A stretch of DNA of 64,000 nucleotides from Nitrososphaerota archaeon. Its GTDB lineage: Archaea > Thermoproteota > Nitrososphaeria > Nitrososphaerales > Nitrosopumilaceae. The stretch's first letter is position 1, and each line of letters starts with the position of its first letter. This document shows positions 3,574 through 55,717 of the stretch, one piece after another. The notes under the pieces were generated by a model. It searched no databases, was not told where the DNA came from, and saw only the letters and a program-made list of their open reading frames with translations. Where the stretch lies: contig JAGWGB010000001.1 in the NCBI GenBank assembly GCA_028867595.1, forward strand, positions 1 to 64,000, read 5' to 3'. Both the position numbers and the translations under genes were made by a program.

Positions 3574-5145
3574 CTAAAATGACTCCTTTGGTTGGTATAC
3601 GCCAAAGACATCTCTAAAGGTATTGCTTATCTCCCCAAGTGTTGCATAGCTTCTTACAGATTCCAAGATATACGGCATCAAGTTTTCTTCTTTTTCAGCA
3701 GCGCTTTTCATCTTGGATAACGCAGACTCTGCCCTTTTGTTGTCTCGCGTGCTTCGAAGTTCCTTTAGGTTCTGCATCTGGTGCACCTGTATGCTGTCGT
3801 CTATCTTCATTATCTCAGGCTTTTCTTCCGTAGAATCTGTAAACTTGTTTACTCCAACTATGACTCGTTCATTGCTGTCTATCTCTTTTTTCAGTCGGTA
3901 TGCATTTTGTCGTATCTCAGACTGGAAGAACCCCTTTTCTATTCCAGCAAGCGAGCCTCCCATCCTGTCAATTCTCTTGAGATACTTGAGTGCCTCCTCC
4001 TCGATTTTGTCTGTCAGGTATTCCACATAATACGAGCCAGCAAGAGGATCTACCGTCTTTGTTATTCCGCTCTCGTGTCCCACTATCTGCTGAGTCCTTA
4101 GCGCAATCTTTACTGCAGCCTCTGTCGGCAATGCCAATGCCTCATCTTTTGAATTTGTGTGAAGCGACTGGCACCCACCAAGTACTGCCGCCATTGACTG
4201 TACTGCAACTCTAACAATATTATTGTCTGGTTGCTGTGCAGTTAGAGATTCACCGCTTGTCTGGACATGGAACTTGAGCTGCATTGATTTTTTGTCTTTT
4301 GCGTGAAACCTGTCCTTGACTATTTTTGCATAGATTCTTCTTGCGGCACGGAACTTGGCAACCTCTTCGAGAAACTCGCTTGTACAGCAAAAGAAGAACG
4401 ATAGCCTTGGCGCAAAGTCATCAATTTTCAGGCCGCGGTCTACACATGTCTCAATGTACTCAATGGCATTTGCAAGGGTAAAGGCAACCTCCTGTACTGC
4501 ATTGCATCCTGCTTCCCGCATGTGATATCCTGATATCGATATCGGATACCATTGTGGTACTTTTTTTGAACAGTATTCTATCATGTCACCAATTAATCGC
4601 ATAGATGGCCTTGGCGGATAGATGTAGGTGTTTCTTGCAATGTATTCCTTGAGGATGTCGTTTTGTGTGGTGCCGCGCAGCTGCTCGCTTTTTACTCCCT
4701 GCGATTCTCCTGTTGCAATGTAAAGTGAAAGCAGTGTTGAAGCAGTTGCATTGATTGTCATAGATGTGCTCACCTTGTCAAGTGGTATTCCGTTAAAGCA
4801 TGTCATCATGTCTTTTAGCGATGTTATTGATACGCCTACCTTTCCTACCTCGCCTTCTGCGTGCGAGTCGTCTGCGTCGTACCCTATCTGAGTTGGCAAG
4901 TCAAACGCCATGCTAAGGCCTGTCTGCCCCCTTTCAAGAAGATACTTGAACCTCTGGTTTGTCTGGGCCGCAGTACCAAAACCGGTATACTGTCTCATAG
5001 TCCACAGTCTGTCCCGGTACATTCCAGGATGGATGCTTCTTGTAAAGGGATGCTTTCCCGGCTCTTCTAACCTACTTTTTGGTTTTACTTTAGAGTCATA
5101 GAAGCGTTTTACCGGAATGTTGGAATCAGTCTTTATCTTATCCAT
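3574..5145 (-). CDS. mcmA1: Methylmalonyl-CoA mutase, large (catalytic) subunit
   Basis: 523 residues, the length of the separate TIM-barrel subunit of archaeal B12-dependent mutases, without the cobalamin-binding domain. Motifs: the PGMYRDRLWTMRQYTGFG substrate-binding entry, RGQTGLSMAFDLPTQIGYD, GTTQNDILKEY and HVQTSGESLTAQQP. With the small subunit at 9123-9545 it converts methylmalonyl-CoA to succinyl-CoA. It lies 4 bp after meaB and 2 bp before mce. The B12-binding subunit is about 4 kb away and on the opposite strand. Confidence 0.96.
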   Translation of the reverse strand: MDKIKTDSNIPVKRFYDSKVKPKSRLEEPGKHPFTRSIHPGMYRDRLWTMRQYTGFGTAAQTNQRFKYLLERGQTGLSMAFDLPTQIGYDADDSHAEGEVGKVGVSITSLKDMMTCFNGIPLDKVSTSMTINATASTLLSLYIATGESQGVKSEQLRGTTQNDILKEYIARNTYIYPPRPSMRLIGDMIEYCSKKVPQWYPISISGYHMREAGCNAVQEVAFTLANAIEYIETCVDRGLKIDDFAPRLSFFFCCTSEFLEEVAKFRAARRIYAKIVKDRFHAKDKKSMQLKFHVQTSGESLTAQQPDNNIVRVAVQSMAAVLGGCQSLHTNSKDEALALPTEAAVKIALRTQQIVGHESGITKTVDPLAGSYYVEYLTDKIEEEALKYLKRIDRMGGSLAGIEKGFFQSEIRQNAYRLKKEIDSNERVIVGVNKFTDSTEEKPEIMKIDDSIQVHQMQNLKELRSTRDNKRAESALSKMKSAAEKEENLMPYILESVRSYATLGEISNTFRDVFGVYQPKESF

Positions 5146-5149
5146 AGTA

Positions 5150-6064
5150 TCACTTTATCAATTTTGATATCTTGTCTGCCGCCTCGAAAGGATCAAGTGT
5201 TTTTTCTTGAACTTTTTTTAGGTATCTAGTGTAAGTGTTGCTTGAATCAAGCATGTTGCTCACTTTGTTTTTGACATTATTTAAAACAATATCTCGCAGT
5301 TCCGCATCAAGGATTTGCTCCTCCCTTTGCTTCTTTGATTTTTTCTTTGCCCCCATCAATTCTTGAAGTTTTTTTGCAAATTCCGTTATTCCTTTGTTTG
5401 ATTTGGTCGATGTCATCATGATTACAGGATTGCTCTCTGACATTCCTATGAAATCTCTTACAGAGTCAAAGAGCTGGTTTGCCCCAGGCAAGTCGCTTTT
5501 GTTTATCAGATAAATGTCCCCAATCTCAGTCAGTCCTGCCTTTATTGTCTGAATGCTGTCGCCTGTGTTTGGATTGAAGACCACAACGGTTACATCAACA
5601 AGTCTTGATATGTCTACTTCGGTCTGCCCCGCCCCAACGCTTTCTATTATAATAGGATCAAACCCAGCAAACTCTAGTATCCGTATGCTGTTTCGCAGTG
5701 CCATCGATACCGCACCTGTTGCGCCCCTTGAGGCCATGCTTCGAATATACGTTCCAGAGTCAGTTGATTCAGTCATGCGTACCCTGTCACCCAAAATGGC
5801 GCCTCCTGTTATGTGACTTGTAGGATCTATTGCAAGAACTGCAGTCTTGTATCCAAGCTTGTTAAGCTGCACGCTTGTCTTGTTTATGAGCGTGCTCTTT
5901 CCTGCGCCCGCAGGGCCGGTTATTCCAATAGTGAAAGACTTGCCAGAATTTTTGAATATTTTTTTAATCAAATCTCTTGCCGATTTTTCATCGTTTTCAA
6001 CCATCGATATGGCTCGAGCAATAGCGCGCCTCTTTCCTTGTTTTAGATCCTTTACCAAATCCAT
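5150..6064 (-). CDS. meaB: MeaB/ArgK-type G-protein chaperone of methylmalonyl-CoA mutase
   Basis: 304 residues. Walker A GPAGAGKST at about 50-58, switch region DPTSHITGGAILGDRVRM, Walker B/switch IIIESVGAGQTEVDI and NKSD (G4) place it in the SIMIBI MeaB family. These GTPases protect and reload cobalamin in methylmalonyl-CoA mutase. It is the first gene of the meaB-mcmA1-mce operon. A TATA-like GATATATGC lies about 28 bp upstream of the ATG (around 6090-6098). Confidence 0.95.
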   Translation of the reverse strand: MDLVKDLKQGKRRAIARAISMVENDEKSARDLIKKIFKNSGKSFTIGITGPAGAGKSTLINKTSVQLNKLGYKTAVLAIDPTSHITGGAILGDRVRMTESTDSGTYIRSMASRGATGAVSMALRNSIRILEFAGFDPIIIESVGAGQTEVDISRLVDVTVVVFNPNTGDSIQTIKAGLTEIGDIYLINKSDLPGANQLFDSVRDFIGMSESNPVIMMTSTKSNKGITEFAKKLQELMGAKKKSKKQREEQILDAELRDIVLNNVKNKVSNMLDSSNTYTRYLKKVQEKTLDPFEAADKISKLIK

Positions 6065-12431: not shown

Positions 12432-13307
12432 ATGAATGTTGGAATAATTGGTACAGGATTGCTTGGCAGTGCAGTTGCAACGCGTCTTCTTAGCACAGGA
12501 CATACAGTGACAGTTTACAACAGGACAAAAGAAAAGGCAGAGCCACTCAAGAGATTGGGTGCAAGTGTTGTAGAGTCCCCAAAAAAAGTATCTGAAAAAT
12601 CTGATCTTGTAATAACAATTGTAAAGGATGCATCTGCTGTAGAATCAATAGCGTTTGGAAGCGATGGCATCATACAAGGAAGACATGACGGACTTGTCGT
12701 GGCAGACATGAGCACAATCAATCCTGTATCATCAAGAAAAATTGCAGAAAAATATGCACAGTATGGAATACAGATGATTGACAGCCCAGTGATGGGAGGT
12801 CCCTCGCTTGCAGAAAAGGGGCAGCTTGTGGTAATGATAGGAGGAGAAAAAACAGCCTATGAAAAATGCAAAGCAGTTTTTGATTCAATCGGTGAGAAAA
12901 CATTTTACATCGGTGCCAACGGTGCAGCTGATTCGATGAAGCTTGCAATGAACCTCCAGATTGCAATTTTGGCGTTATCCATATCAGAAGGAATCATACT
13001 TGCAAAAAAGTCAGGTCTTGATCCGCTTCTCTTCCTTGAGGTCCTAAACTCTACCTACTTTAAGACAGGAATGAGCCTTCTCAAGGGGCCAAAGATGGCA
13101 AAAGGAGTCTTTGAGCCAAGTTTCTTTTTGAGTGTGATGCAAAAGGATCTTGATGAGATAAACTATACAGCCAAGGAGTTTGGTGCAAGTCTACCTGTAG
13201 CCAGGCTTGCAAATGAACTATACCAAAATGCCGTAAAAGAAGGATTTGGCAAAATCGATTATACTGGAATCATGGCATATCTTGAAAAATTAAAAGCAAC
13301 TACCTAG
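12432..13307 (+). CDS. NAD(P)-dependent beta-hydroxyacid dehydrogenase family protein
   Basis: 291 residues. N-terminal Rossmann GIIGTGLLGSAVA (about 3-15), the family signature MIDSPVMGGPSLAEKGQLVVMIGG around 116-140, catalytic Lys in SMKLAMNLQIA, and the all-alpha C-terminal domain. It belongs to the 3-hydroxyisobutyrate/6-phosphogluconate dehydrogenase-like superfamily; the substrate (3-hydroxyisobutyrate, tartronate or succinic semialdehyde) cannot be fixed from sequence. It ends in a CTAG shared with the convergent MFS gene. Confidence 0.88.
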   Translation: MNVGIIGTGLLGSAVATRLLSTGHTVTVYNRTKEKAEPLKRLGASVVESPKKVSEKSDLVITIVKDASAVESIAFGSDGIIQGRHDGLVVADMSTINPVSSRKIAEKYAQYGIQMIDSPVMGGPSLAEKGQLVVMIGGEKTAYEKCKAVFDSIGEKTFYIGANGAADSMKLAMNLQIAILALSISEGIILAKKSGLDPLLFLEVLNSTYFKTGMSLLKGPKMAKGVFEPSFFLSVMQKDLDEINYTAKEFGASLPVARLANELYQNAVKEGFGKIDYTGIMAYLEKLKATT

Positions 13308-35858: not shown

Positions 35859-37646
35859 ATGTCCAAGTTCCAGAACAAACTTGTTGTTATCACCGGAAGT
35901 GGCACTGGAATAGGAAAAGCAATAGCGATCAAGTTTGCCGAAAATGGGGCAAGCATTGTCATCTTGGGAAGAAGAAAAGAGCCACTTGAAGAGGCAGCCA
36001 AAGAACTACAGCAAGTGATTGACAAAGTAAAGAGCGGAGCCTTTGTAAAAATATTCTCAGGGGTGGACGTCAGCGACGAAGAAGGCGTCTCAAAAATGTT
36101 TGACGAGTTGAAGAAGGCTCATGGAACAGTAGACATTGTAATCAATAACGCAGGAGTTTCAGGTCCAGTAACATGTTTTCCCAATTCGCCAATTAATGAT
36201 TTTAAGAGTACAGTCGGCATTCACCTCACTGGTACTTTCTGGACATCGGCTCAGGCAGTAAAGGCCATGAAGCCTGGATGCAAGATAGTGACCATATCAA
36301 CATTCTTTACAGAAGAGCGACCGTTTGAACAAAGGCCGTATCGATTTAGAAGTCCATACACTGCATCACAGGGAGCAAAAAACAGGCTTGCCGAAGCAAT
36401 GTCGTGGGAGCTTACAGACAAAGGAATAGTGTCAATTGCTACCAATCCAGGTCCAGTGCACTCTGACAGAATATACAAGACGGTCTATCCAAAGGCCGCA
36501 GCGGAATTTATGAGAGTAAGCGGATTTGAGAGTCTCTCACCTGAAGAAGTAGAAAGTGTCAACAATGACATACTTCCGTTACTTGGAGAAGATGAAAACA
36601 CTGTAAAAAACGGCATAATGCAAGCTACTACCAAGCTTGCAAAGGCAAAATCAATAACGTCGGAGCAAGATATCCAAAAACTAAATGCCACGATCTCTTC
36701 TCTTTTGGCAAAGATACAGCAGATTGCAGAGAAAGTACAAACCAATACAAGCAAAATGATTGCAGATGAACAATTCTTGTCACAGCAACAAGTTGCTGAG
36801 ACTGTCATGATGTTGTGTGACGAATCAATTTCAAAGATATTAAACGGCAAGGTCATTCCAGGTGACAGAGTGTTCTATCCTGTCAAGCCACACATTGCAT
36901 GCTCAATACCTGAGACCAGTCCCAATTATGCCTCCAAAGTTGTTGTATTTGTGGTAGATGCCACTGAAGAATCAGATGTGGCAAGAGTGGAGTATCTTGC
37001 ACAAAATATCGAAAATAACGGCGGAAAGACAGTGATCTTGATTTCAAAGACTAGTATAAAACAAGCCGAAGAAAGATTATCCAAATTCCATTCTCATGTA
37101 ATGGACATAACAAGCCAAGAAAACATGAGAAGGATGCTAAATACGGCCACACAAAAGATTGGGCCTATCAGTACAGTCATCTACATAACAGGAAAACTGG
37201 GTCAGGTTTCAAAGCTTGTTGAGCTTTCAAGACAGCAATGGGATGGACTCGTGGACAAGTTCATAAACACACCTGCGGCAGTCCTGCAGGAAACACTTGG
37301 CAGATTTGTCCAAGGGGGAGCAAAGAATCCACCTCTTTTCAAAGACAAAGAAGGCACAATCATACTCATCGGACCTGACATGCCATCAGGAAGTAAGGTC
37401 ACAGGAAGGGATAGAGCTAAAGTCGAGGTGTTCAGAGGAGCGCTGAGGCCCTTTACAACAACGGTCAATCAAGAGCTAAGCGATGTTCTCAAATCAAAGA
37501 TAAGGATGCATTTGATTCTCCCTGGCAGCGTTGACGGAACGGAACCAAGCAATGCCAAGATTCTAAATGCAATTAACTTTTTCAGTTCCGGAAAGGCGGT
37601 TTCAAACTCTGAGATAATTTATTATCCAGACGAAACTAGATCCTGA
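35859..37646 (+). CDS. Tandem short-chain dehydrogenase protein resembling the C-terminal half of malonyl-CoA reductase
   Basis: 595 residues. SDR 1 (about 5-215): NAD(P) loop TGSGTGIG (12-19), NNAG near 96-99, Ser147, Tyr167. The residue four after Tyr167 is Gln171, not the usual Lys, although Lys174 follows. A helical linker (about 225-320) ends in VAETVMMLCDE...NGKVIPGD, the usual SDR C-terminal segment. A second degenerate Rossmann domain (about 350-590) lacks the TGxxxGxG and YxxxK motifs. Layout and motif order recall the C-terminal half of Chloroflexus bifunctional malonyl-CoA reductase. Coupled (ATGA) to a hot-dog gene. Malonyl-CoA reduction is only a hypothesis. Confidence 0.85.
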   Translation: MSKFQNKLVVITGSGTGIGKAIAIKFAENGASIVILGRRKEPLEEAAKELQQVIDKVKSGAFVKIFSGVDVSDEEGVSKMFDELKKAHGTVDIVINNAGVSGPVTCFPNSPINDFKSTVGIHLTGTFWTSAQAVKAMKPGCKIVTISTFFTEERPFEQRPYRFRSPYTASQGAKNRLAEAMSWELTDKGIVSIATNPGPVHSDRIYKTVYPKAAAEFMRVSGFESLSPEEVESVNNDILPLLGEDENTVKNGIMQATTKLAKAKSITSEQDIQKLNATISSLLAKIQQIAEKVQTNTSKMIADEQFLSQQQVAETVMMLCDESISKILNGKVIPGDRVFYPVKPHIACSIPETSPNYASKVVVFVVDATEESDVARVEYLAQNIENNGGKTVILISKTSIKQAEERLSKFHSHVMDITSQENMRRMLNTATQKIGPISTVIYITGKLGQVSKLVELSRQQWDGLVDKFINTPAAVLQETLGRFVQGGAKNPPLFKDKEGTIILIGPDMPSGSKVTGRDRAKVEVFRGALRPFTTTVNQELSDVLKSKIRMHLILPGSVDGTEPSNAKILNAINFFSSGKAVSNSEIIYYPDETRS

Positions 37647-38092
37647 TGAAAAAATTTTCTGAGATTCAAATCGGCGATGAGTTTTTTTCAGAATGCAAAA
37701 TTACATCAGATGACTTGGAAAAGTATCTTTCCTTTTCAGGTATAAAAAACATAATTTACGAAAAAGAAGAGTTTGCAGACAAGCAAGGAAAGATGGTTTC
37801 AGGCAGAGCCATACTTGCAAGAATGGAGGGAGAGTTTACAAGACTTGAAGAAATGTATGGAAATGTTTTGATTTTCTACGGCATTGATGGAGATGCTTCT
37901 TGGAACAATAGGCAGACACGGTTCTTAAAGCCTCTCCGTACTGATGAAAAATTGAAGATCAAGTTCAGGATTTCCGACAAGCGAGATCTCAATGACGAAT
38001 TCGGACTCGTGACAGTAGATTTCGAGGGGACAGATAAAGATGGTAAGACAGTCCTTCTATCTAAACGAAACATCTACCAGATGAAAAAATAG
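37646..38092 (+). CDS. MaoC-like hot-dog-fold protein lacking catalytic Asp/His
   Basis: 148 residues. N-terminal FSEIQIGDEFFSECKITSDDLEKYLSFSG matches the MaoC/FabZ-like start, and the latter half FLKPLRTDEKLKIKFRIS with VTVDFEGTDKDG matches the hot-dog sheet. The D-x-N-P-x-H hydratase motif is replaced by GIKNIIYEK, so dehydratase activity is doubtful; it may be a binding or accessory subunit. Its start overlaps the SDR stop region (37646), pointing to translational coupling. Confidence 0.78.
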   Translation: MKKFSEIQIGDEFFSECKITSDDLEKYLSFSGIKNIIYEKEEFADKQGKMVSGRAILARMEGEFTRLEEMYGNVLIFYGIDGDASWNNRQTRFLKPLRTDEKLKIKFRISDKRDLNDEFGLVTVDFEGTDKDGKTVLLSKRNIYQMKK

Positions 38093-50429: not shown

Positions 50430-51845
50430 TCAATAGAGAAAACTCAGTAGTTTTATCTGCTGTTCTGTTGTTATCATATTCTTTGAGGCCATTATCTCAA
50501 GAAGCTGAGTTATCAGTTGTTTTTGTTGTTCTGAGAATCCGGGTTGTCCTGGAGGGCCTGGAGGGCCTGGAGGGCCACGTGGACCTTGTTCACCCATAGG
50601 ACCTTGAGGGCCTTGTGGACCTTTATCACCCGGGGGACCTGGAGGGCCTGTAACACCCTTGTCGCCTTGAGGACCCTGTACTCCTTGAGGACCTTTATCA
50701 CCTGATTGCCCTTGAGGGCCTAGAGGACCTTTGTCGCCTTGAGGACCCTGTATTCCTTGAGGACCCGGAGGGCCTTGAGTACCTGGAGGACCGCGTGGCC
50801 CTTGTTCCCCTGGAGGACCTGGTAGACCCCTTGGACCTTTTTCGCCTTGAGGACCTGGAATCCCAGTCAGGCCTTTTTCCCCAGGAGGTCCTTGCGGACC
50901 TTGGGGGCCTTTGTCGCCCAATGGACCTTGAGGACCCGTGAGTCCCTTATCGCCCTGAGGACCTTGTGGACCGACAGAACCTTTGTCGCCCAGAGGGCCA
51001 GTAGGACCTTTAGGTCCTTTTTCGCCCGGAGGGCCTAGAATGCCTTTATCGCCTTGTAAACCTGGAGGGCCTGTAGGTCCTTTGTCTCCAGATATTCCTT
51101 TATCACCAGTAATTCCTTTTTCTCCAGTTGGACCCTTGTCGCCCTTGTCACCTTTATCACCAGTTTCACCTTTATCTCCTCGAGGTCCCTTGTCTCCTGA
51201 TGGACCTTTGTCACCAGTAATTCCTTTTTCTCCAGTTGGACCCTTGTCGCCCTTGTCACCTTTATCGCCTGGAGGACCAGGCGGACCTTTGTCACCTACG
51301 GGGCCTTGAGGACCTGGCATGCCTTTGTCACCTTGAGGGCCCGGTATGCCTTGAGAACCAACAGGGCCTTGAGGACCTGGAGGGCCAGGCGGACCTTGTA
51401 CCCCCTGTGGGCCCTGTGGACCTCTTGGACCAGGCGAGCCTGGTGTTGGATAATAATATTCAGTTTGAGGTTTTGAGAGGGTCTTTGGGAATTCCTTGTT
51501 TTGTGGCGGCGGAGATGAGGGTGACATTCCCTCAATCTTAGGTACGTTAAATTGAAAAGCGCCATTAATTGATGAAAATTGATCTAACACTACAATCCAG
51601 ACTGAATCTCTTGTAAATACAAAATCAGGAATTGGATTTCTTGCAGAACCTAGAACCTGAGCAAACTTTCTATCTTTTACCCTGAGATGAAAATTGTCTT
51701 TCCATAGAACAGGAAAATTCCTATGTTTTATGTCGTCCTGAGAAGGAGGATAGTCACAGATTGAAATCTGCACCTCGAAAACCCCTGATGATAGCTTGAA
51801 CGGGGACTCGCCATTTACTTCAATAGTTCTATCTTCGGCTGACAT
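50430..51845 (-). CDS. Collagen-like Gly-X-Y repeat protein
   Basis: 471 residues. A non-repetitive N-terminal domain (about 1-110) contains [14 protein letters not shown] and VWIVVLDQF, then a linker with a PP-rich stretch. Residues 136-435 are 100 uninterrupted Gly-X-Y triplets, many of them GDKG, GPQG, GPPG or GEKG. A C-terminal helical tail ([14 protein letters not shown]...LLSFLY) may drive trimer formation. No signal peptide or membrane anchor is seen. Pro-rich triplets with Lys-Gly-Asp salt bridges suggest a stable triple helix without hydroxyproline. Function unknown. Its promoter may be an AAAATAC element about 24-26 bp upstream. Confidence 0.9.
51103..51266 (-). repeat. 56-bp perfect direct repeat inside the collagen-like gene
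   Basis: Positions 51103-51158 and 51211-51266 are identical over 56 bp, 108 bp apart (36 codons, 12 triplets). The identity, including synonymous positions, points to recent duplication or slippage in the GDKG/GEKG region. Confidence 0.85.
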
Positions 51846-53911: not shown

Positions 53912-55717
53912 TCAAGCAGCACATTCGCCCCGTCCAGTTCTGGCGTGATAGCTTCCATCGTTTCCATAGTCAACATAAAAATCAGAGTCTTGTTCAATTG
54001 TGGGGGGCGCCACAACCGGTTTCAATAAATCCTTGATATCATTAATTGATTTAACTTTAGGACCTCCGTTGCCTTCTATTACATTATGAATCCATTTATC
54101 CAATGTTTCACCGGATCGTTTTTCTGACTTGAATATCTCAATTACTTTTAAGATTGCTGGAATAACACGCTTTGCAGGAACCTTGATAGTTGATAATCCT
54201 AACATTGATTTTTCGTCTGCTCTTCCTCCAAGCAACATAGTATACAATGGATACATGTCTTTTCCAAGCCTCCCTCCACCACCATAAAATCCAATTGTAG
54301 CAATTTCATGCTGGCCACATGAGTTTGGACATCCACTTATCTTGATTGTGGAATCTCTCAAATCATCATCTTCATCAAGTTTCATTTCAAGGAATTTTCT
54401 TTGTACTTCTTTTGCTAGTCTGTGGGAGTTTGTCAATGCCAAATTACATGATGTAGTGCCAGAGCATCCTACAACTGAAGCCATAGTCAAGGCACCTGGA
54501 TTTGCAAGCCCAACCTCTAATAATGCCGCATATAGCCGTGGAAGATCTTCGTCTTTCACCCATCGGAATACAATATCTTGTGCAAATCCATTTCGGATTC
54601 TGCCTTCCGCAGAAAATTCGCGTGCCATTTCAGCAACGGCTCTCAATTGGCTTGCAGTAATATCACCAGATTCCAGAGTAACAAATGCACTACTATAGCC
54701 ATGTTGTTTTTGTTTCACAGTGTTTGTCTTGAGCCATCTCGACAGTCCTTGTGGTGAAGAAGACATTTCAGAACTTATTGAGACCTTACGTAGAACTTCA
54801 GGAGTCTTATCAAGATCAAGTTTTACGACTACAGACTGGACAAGTTTCACCATCGCCCTTTCCTTCAATATAACACTCTGGAACTTTTCCCATCCAAGTT
54901 CATTTACAAGATATCTCATTCTGTTTCGCGCCATATTCTCACGGTTGCCCATTCTATCATAAATTCGAATTACTGCAATTACTGTATACAAAAGATCTGC
55001 TTCCGGTGTAAAAGGTTCAAGCTGGTGTCCCACAAACGACTGTGCTCCAAGCCCTCCCCCAAGGAAAACTTTGAATCCATTTTCCATGTTTCCGTTGATT
55101 TCCATTCGTTGTGGTATTAGTCCGACATCCACGATTCTTGCCATCCCGTGTTTTTCACAGCACGTAAAATTTAATTTGAATTTTCGTGGGAGAGATTGAT
55201 TCATTGCGTTGCGAAGTAGAAATTTTGCAGTAGCTAAAGCATGTGGAGTTGGATCAAACACTTCTTCTGAACATACGCCTGCAAGTGGGCTACACATTAC
55301 ATTTCTTACGCTATTTCCACATGCTTCTCTTGATGTTAATCCAATTTCTGCAAGTCCTCTCATAACCTCTGATACGTCCTCTAGTGTAATCCAATGAAGT
55401 TGGAAATTCTGTCTTGTGGACACATGTGCACTTCCAATTGAGAATGATTCACTCAGATCAGCAATTTTTTCTAGTTGCTCTGGATAAACCTCACCTGCTG
55501 GAATTTTTATACGCACCATACTGTAGTCGTCAGTCATCCTACTACCATATGCCCCATGCTGAAGTCTAAATCTCCTCATTTCATCACGAGTGATTTTTCC
55601 CTGTCTGAGCAGCTTGACCATTTCTGCAAATTTGTCAGCTTCCTCTAGACGCCCCCATTGTATCTTAGGCTTTGGCAGATTATCTGGTCGTGACTGAGAA
55701 AGGCTTGTCTTGCTCAA
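53912..55717 (-). CDS. Siroheme nitrite/sulfite reductase (ferredoxin type)
   Basis: 601 residues from TTG. The [4Fe-4S]-siroheme ligands are Cys418 and Cys424 (CSGTTSC) and Cys463 and Cys467 (GCPNSCGQ), within the second of two ferredoxin-like half domains. Siroheme-binding Arg residues appear in STRQNFQLHW and in the second half. It reduces sulfite to sulfide or nitrite to ammonia; the adjoining sulfurtransferase favours sulfite. The TATA-like AATTTATATGCG about 26-30 bp upstream supports the TTG start. Confidence 0.9.
   Translation of the reverse strand: MSKTSLSQSRPDNLPKPKIQWGRLEEADKFAEMVKLLRQGKITRDEMRRFRLQHGAYGSRMTDDYSMVRIKIPAGEVYPEQLEKIADLSESFSIGSAHVSTRQNFQLHWITLEDVSEVMRGLAEIGLTSREACGNSVRNVMCSPLAGVCSEEVFDPTPHALATAKFLLRNAMNQSLPRKFKLNFTCCEKHGMARIVDVGLIPQRMEINGNMENGFKVFLGGGLGAQSFVGHQLEPFTPEADLLYTVIAVIRIYDRMGNRENMARNRMRYLVNELGWEKFQSVILKERAMVKLVQSVVVKLDLDKTPEVLRKVSISSEMSSSPQGLSRWLKTNTVKQKQHGYSSAFVTLESGDITASQLRAVAEMAREFSAEGRIRNGFAQDIVFRWVKDEDLPRLYAALLEVGLANPGALTMASVVGCSGTTSCNLALTNSHRLAKEVQRKFLEMKLDEDDDLRDSTIKISGCPNSCGQHEIATIGFYGGGGRLGKDMYPLYTMLLGGRADEKSMLGLSTIKVPAKRVIPAILKVIEIFKSEKRSGETLDKWIHNVIEGNGGPKVKSINDIKDLLKPVVAPPTIEQDSDFYVDYGNDGSYHARTGRGECAA

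Follow-up and report, generated by a model that had tools for sequence, protein, structure and literature searches.

Two genes lie head to tail on the forward strand of the window, the whole stretch of 64,000 nucleotides of Nitrososphaerota DNA that was analysed. The first encodes a tandem-SDR protein and the second a small MaoC-like protein, and the following features were assigned to them:

35859-37646, plus strand: P0001, 595-residue tandem-SDR protein, candidate thaumarchaeal malonyl-CoA reductase (open reading frame, fold model, Foldseek)
35859-36479, plus strand: first, catalytic-type SDR domain, residues 1-207 (Pfam adh_short, 1.3e-41; tree with MCR-N and MCR-C, the N- and C-terminal halves of bacterial malonyl-CoA reductase, MCR)
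36489-36878, plus strand: helical insertion at the site of the MCR-C "extra domain", residues about 211-340
36927-37643, plus strand: second, degenerate SDR domain, residues about 357-595 (model and Foldseek)
37644-37648, plus strand: TGATG, one-base stop/start overlap of P0001 and P0002 (TGA 37644-37646, ATG 37646-37648)
37646-38092, plus strand: P0002, 148-residue MaoC-like hot-dog protein without the hydratase motif (fold match, orthologue alignment)

An earlier reading of this DNA from its sequence only had described the junction as a four-base ATGA type; the overlap is there, but it is of the one-base kind. The helical linker and second Rossmann domain postulated in the same reading are both seen in an AlphaFold2 model of P0001 built from 26 orthologues (pLDDT 87.9, pTM 0.88), in which helices occupy residues 203-221, 228-241, 246-263 and 269-299, and the strands and helices of the second domain span residues 361-576. 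Measured between its flanking motifs, the insertion is 118-138 residues long among orthologues, and the open reading frame is conserved in its entirety across ammonia-oxidising archaea (AOA).

When the model was compared with the PDB by Foldseek, the best 25 matches were all MCR chains, either N- or C-terminal halves or full enzymes (E 3e-25 to 4e-18), among them the full Chloroflexus and Roseiflexus enzymes and both halves of bacterial MCRs. These matches span 635-697 columns and thus the whole of P0001, with TM values of 0.68-0.72 normalised by the query and a loose superposition (rmsd 5-9 Å). The first match outside MCR was a single-domain SDR at 7e-14, so that the protein resembles the MCR halves rather than an unrelated SDR group, as the sequence-only reading had anticipated. 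The best PDB match of the single P0001 sequence is also MCR (4e-33, summed over two SDR domains), and the family profile reaches 1e-45 with MCR against 5e-25 with the best non-MCR entry, again as a sum of two SDR domains; by single domains, MCR (84.6-88 bits) does not score above ordinary SDRs (90.8 bits). A fairer test than such summed scores is the ranking within genomes that contain both MCR and many SDRs, and here the AOA profile matched MCR itself most strongly in seven of seven MCR-bearing bacterial genomes, each with 10-39 SDR matches.

P0001 has the plan of the C-terminal half (SDR3-ED-SDR4) of the bifunctional MCRs of Chloroflexus, Roseiflexus and Porphyrobacter/Erythrobacter, in which an active SDR with a helical insertion is followed by a degenerate SDR. 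These enzymes are its best structural matches, and it shares with them the YxxRxxY motif and the pair Arg204/Arg785. Unlike these 1,200-residue fusions, P0001 corresponds to one 595-residue half; its insertion is shorter than that of MCR-C, its second domain is unrecognisable by sequence, and its active site has Gln171 for the catalytic Lys, Lys at Tyr+7 and Thr for Ser731. The residues concerned are located as follows:

35892-35915, plus strand: TGSGTGIG cofactor-binding loop, residues 12-19 (sequence, orthologue alignment)
35967-35975, plus strand: G37-R38-R39 after strand 2, invariant; R38 aligned to NADP-binding Arg616 of Roseiflexus MCR
36300-36302, plus strand: Thr148, counterpart of catalytic Ser731 (MCR-C) and Thr165 (MCR-N), invariant (alignment)
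36339-36359, plus strand: Tyr161-x-x-Arg164-x-x-Tyr167, the YxxRxxY malonate-binding motif of MCR, invariant (alignment)
36369-36371, plus strand: Gln171 where Roseiflexus MCR has its catalytic Lys (Lys753), invariant in 61/61 (orthologue alignment)
36378-36380, plus strand: Lys174 at Tyr+7, on the helix face shared with Tyr167, invariant in 61/61 (orthologue alignment)
36468-36470, plus strand: Arg204 within GPVHSDRIYKTVY, counterpart of Arg785 (MCR-C) and Arg215 (MCR-N), invariant (alignment; absent from 26 ordinary SDRs)

The glycine-rich loop, NNAG (residues 96-99), Tyr167, Gln171 and Lys174 all stand where they had been read from the sequence. The catalytic hydroxyl has to be moved by one residue, from the proposed Ser147, which is Ala or Thr in orthologues, to the invariant Thr148. 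In Roseiflexus MCR, malonate is bound by Tyr743-x-x-Arg746-x-x-Tyr749, the triad is completed by Ser731 and Lys753, exchange of Lys753 for Ala abolishes activity, and Arg785 is required for full activity (PMC10470521). With the numbering checked against the aligned 8hi4 sequence, the archaeal counterparts of these residues are Tyr161, Arg164, Tyr167, Thr148, Gln171 and Arg204, the last being the invariant equivalent of an arginine that follows GPVxGx in Roseiflexus. The extra-domain residues Arg799, Lys807 and Lys919 and Arg1164 of SDR4 fall where insertion and second domain are alignable only unreliably by sequence. Every AOA and MCR row has Tyr161, Arg164 and Arg204; among the 26 ordinary SDRs, Arg164 occurs in four and the other two residues in none.

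The Ser/Thr-Tyr-Lys triad is therefore incomplete, with Thr148 and Tyr167 present and a Tyr-x-x-x-Gln in place of the classical Tyr-x-x-x-Lys in all 61 orthologues, which were drawn from four families. Conservation of Gln171 and Lys174, left as a question by the sequence-only reading, is thus complete, and neither state is found in any MCR or ordinary SDR row of the comparison set. Together with the retention of the whole reading frame over AOA, this is well beyond chance, and AOA also show no variation at the remaining residues for cofactor and substrate. Bacterial MCR-C has the reverse order, with Lys at +4 and Gln at +7. Since Tyr+7 lies 340 degrees round the helix and hence on the same face as the tyrosine, Lys174 may take over part of the role of the missing lysine. 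The alignment of R38 with the NADP-binding Arg616 suggests a preference for NADPH.

In a tree of the first domains, the AOA proteins, MCR-N and MCR-C group together apart from the 26 ordinary SDRs (support 100/97), with low support (68/25) for a placement of AOA nearer to one MCR half or the other. Removal of either MCR half left the other two groups paired to the exclusion of the SDRs (SH-aLRT 92 and 90); one of these two trees carried a long-branch warning. As the grouping was lost once the active-site columns were dropped, we keep the claim of a clade modest: most of the sequence link between P0001 and MCR comes from the active-site block and from the architecture. A common origin of the AOA protein and MCR appears likely from these alignments rather than proven, because the grouping needs the active-site columns and the second domains of AOA, MCR-N and MCR-C show no mutual recognition in single-domain hhalign comparisons. 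Convergence of another SDR on the MCR plan is a possible alternative.

Within a sample of 398 Thermoproteota genomes the gene was detected in 73, all from three families of the window's order and always as a single copy (one match ends at a contig edge and one is shortened), and no homologue was found outside that order at E 1e-40. A class-level sample of 250 genomes yielded the gene in 184 and added a fourth family. All four amoA-bearing families sampled have it, so that the absence from autotrophic relatives which would have spoken against the sequence-only reading was not observed, whereas no amoA-negative family of the order does. In a cross-table of 40 genomes, the 20 with the gene all encode amoA, a biotin carboxylase and a 4-hydroxybutyryl-CoA-dehydratase-type (4HBD-type) gene. 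Among the 20 without it are four drafts (86-93% complete) that belong to the window's own family; the other 16 come from families where no genome tested has amoA. Because eight of these 16 carry a 4HBD-type gene and four a biotin carboxylase, this gene is more closely tied to ammonia oxidisers than either of these markers is. The distribution fits AOA autotrophy and is also compatible with other AOA-specific traits. Three genomes of one family (G197, G257 and G273, family f2) have two adjacent 4HBD-type genes each rather than one.

In the thaumarchaeal 3-hydroxypropionate/4-hydroxybutyrate (HP/HB) cycle, some of the characteristic enzymes have yet to be identified (PMC7078158). For malonyl-CoA reductase, the activity had been measured and the gene was described as unidentified in 2018 (PMC6038301) and again in 2020 (PMC6964070), in agreement with the statement of the sequence-only reading that this enzyme was not firmly established. 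No earlier identification of the present gene as MCR was found in the openly accessible literature; subscription pathway papers (e.g., Könneke 2014; Otte 2015) could hold one. A malonic semialdehyde reductase of Nitrosopumilus maritimus has already been reported (Otte 2015, according to papers that cite it), so that the step left for a stand-alone enzyme is the one on the acyl-CoA.

We propose, with a probability of about 60%, that P0001 is the NADPH-dependent, semialdehyde-forming malonyl-CoA reductase of the thaumarchaeal HP/HB cycle, where we infer substrate, cofactor and direction from its likeness in sequence and model to MCR. The protein would act as one half of a bacterial MCR does. Its first SDR domain would hold NADPH and reduce the thioester, giving malonic semialdehyde, with YxxRxxY and Arg204 gripping the carboxylate and acyl end, and CoA would be cradled by the helical insertion, its expected place by analogy with the MCR-C extra domain, together with the degenerate second SDR domain. 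Reduction of the semialdehyde would be left to a separate enzyme. Lys174, one helical turn beyond Gln171, would probably provide the positive charge in place of the usual lysine. Against the reading of P0001 as an MCR stands the fact that the lysine replaced here is essential in the Roseiflexus enzyme. The candidate function put forward in the sequence-only reading for the SDR protein itself has thus survived both the fold comparison and the survey of genomes. P0001 follows the known tandem-SDR plan of MCR, with Gln in place of the catalytic Lys throughout the AOA orthologues aligned.

The Sulfolobales malonyl-CoA/succinyl-CoA reductase (Msed_0709), which performs the reaction proposed here in a formally similar cycle, belongs to the aspartate-semialdehyde dehydrogenase (ASD) superfamily, unlike the SDR-type P0001. 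The window's genome encodes one ASD and one ArgC in this superfamily and no third member; there is thus no spare paralogue, and a Sulfolobales-type MCR was rejected. We would give even odds to the wider view that AOA fix CO2 with an SDR-type MCR consisting of one MCR-like half, in which the catalytic lysine has moved from Tyr+4 to Tyr+7 and Gln has taken its place, so that three enzymes would serve one step: an ASD-type protein in Sulfolobales, a fused SDR in Chloroflexota and a single SDR half with a rewired active site in AOA.

The substrate might instead be succinyl-CoA, P0001 either acting as the cycle's succinyl-CoA reductase or serving both thioesters, given that a dicarboxylyl-CoA-binding motif suits either. 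In Sulfolobales one enzyme does act on both malonyl-CoA and succinyl-CoA. The unidentified enzymes listed in 2018 also include succinyl-CoA reductase (PMC6038301). However, the relatives that have been solved and assayed use malonyl-CoA, and the genome contains an SSADH-like aldehyde dehydrogenase (L060) that could serve succinyl-CoA, and we consider this reading unlikely.

Closer to the N-terminal half of MCR (SDR1-SDR2), P0001 could reduce malonic or succinic semialdehyde to the hydroxy acid. It shares with MCR-N the tandem SDR arrangement, Thr165/Thr148, YxxRxxY and the PGPxxSxRI motif, and Thr148, Asn175, Ser202 and Ile205 resemble this semialdehyde-reducing half; N-half structures also give a higher target-normalised TM (0.75-0.77) and a lower rmsd against the model. 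The family profile aligns with MCR-N at E 1.3e-26 and with MCR-C at 6e-25 in hhalign. Separate hhalign comparisons of single domains do not discriminate, because a diverse generic SDR profile outscores the MCR profiles against everything. On the other hand, Lys182 of MCR-N is Gln in the AOA protein as well, and the AOA insertion is longer than that of MCR-N and nearer in size to the CoA-binding extra domain, for which a small semialdehyde would have no need. In N. maritimus, moreover, papers on the pathway already assign this step to another enzyme. That enzyme is reportedly an iron-type alcohol dehydrogenase. This reading therefore seems quite unlikely to us.

Less probable still is a non-catalytic or otherwise specialised AOA SDR outside carbon fixation, in which the exchange of Lys for Gln would mark lost redox activity. 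The lysine is indeed absent, the co-occurrence with amoA could mirror any AOA-specific trait, and 4HBD-type genes and biotin carboxylase occur in some amoA-negative relatives that lack the SDR gene; yet one would not expect TGxxxGxG, NNAG, Thr148, Tyr167 and the MCR motif to be retained in a protein that had lost its activity. An enoyl-thioester reductase, such as the missing acryloyl-CoA reductase, is suggested by the Tyr-x6-Lys spacing of Tyr167 and the invariant Lys174, which is that of divergent, FabI/InhA-type SDRs (enoyl reductases), but is highly improbable given the MCR-type architecture, a YxxRxxY carboxylate motif without evident use on acryloyl-CoA and the lack of any FabI-type enzyme among the 50 Foldseek matches listed. 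Acryloyl-CoA reductase, too, is listed as unidentified (PMC6038301).

The downstream protein P0002 does adopt the MaoC-like hot-dog fold claimed for it (best PDB matches 1q6w, at 1.7e-7, and 4ffu) and does lack D-x-N-P-x-H, reading FSGIKN at this position. The motif is absent from all 24 orthologues aligned, which differ from MaoC-like hydratases and NodN-like hot-dog proteins of the same fold in having an invariant set of their own (Ser52-Gly-Arg-Ala, Glu61-Gly-Glu-Phe-Thr-Arg and Asp81-Gly-Asp). The suggestion that the two proteins form a functional pair did not hold. Their genes adjoin at 34 of the loci compared, all 34 from the window's family, but the P0002 gene is located elsewhere in G215, and a MaoC-like gene is missing from 19 of 25 genomes searched, including complete ones that carry the SDR gene. 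In G390 it is broken (C1:1039867-1040311, an in-frame stop and a split match) and the SDR gene is intact. P0002 is thus not a required partner, and we reject it as an essential subunit; in some lineages it may help with the acyl end, being dispensable for the reaction over the order.

Built like half of a bacterial MCR and encoded once in each AOA lineage sampled, P0001 is a strong candidate for a missing carbon fixation step in some of Earth's most abundant microbes. With a single conserved candidate, the question of the gene becomes testable with one purified protein. The gene could also be a marker for the pathway, and its product, an SDR-type enzyme whose catalytic residue is unusual, might be of use for 3-hydroxypropionate engineering.

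The neighbours of the gene encode a DNA ligase, a PhoU-like protein, a tRNA endonuclease, TauE and a homoserine dehydrogenase, and the latter two remain beside it in several families (L036-L045 and other f2/f3 loci). At L039, L044 and L045 the neighbours, identified by eye, are a diphthine-ammonia-ligase-like protein and the SRP GTPase Ffh. A tie to the cycle by neighbourhood was rejected: no cycle gene adjoins P0001, and the nearest sign of one, methylmalonyl-CoA mutase about 30 kb away, is weak. This HP/HB cycle enzyme is encoded beside a MeaB GTPase (3574-5145 and 5150-6064, both minus strand). A mobile or plasmid origin was also rejected, as no plasmid record covers 80% of P0001. Elsewhere in the window we noted a 3-hydroxyisobutyrate-dehydrogenase-like protein (12432-13307, plus strand), of a family able to act on small semialdehydes, a protein of the nitrite/sulphite reductase type that has two domains each of the NIR_SIR and ferredoxin-like kinds (53912-55717, minus strand), and, in an archaeon, a 471-residue protein with collagen-type repeats (50430-51845, minus strand; Pfam Collagen, 2.9e-51).
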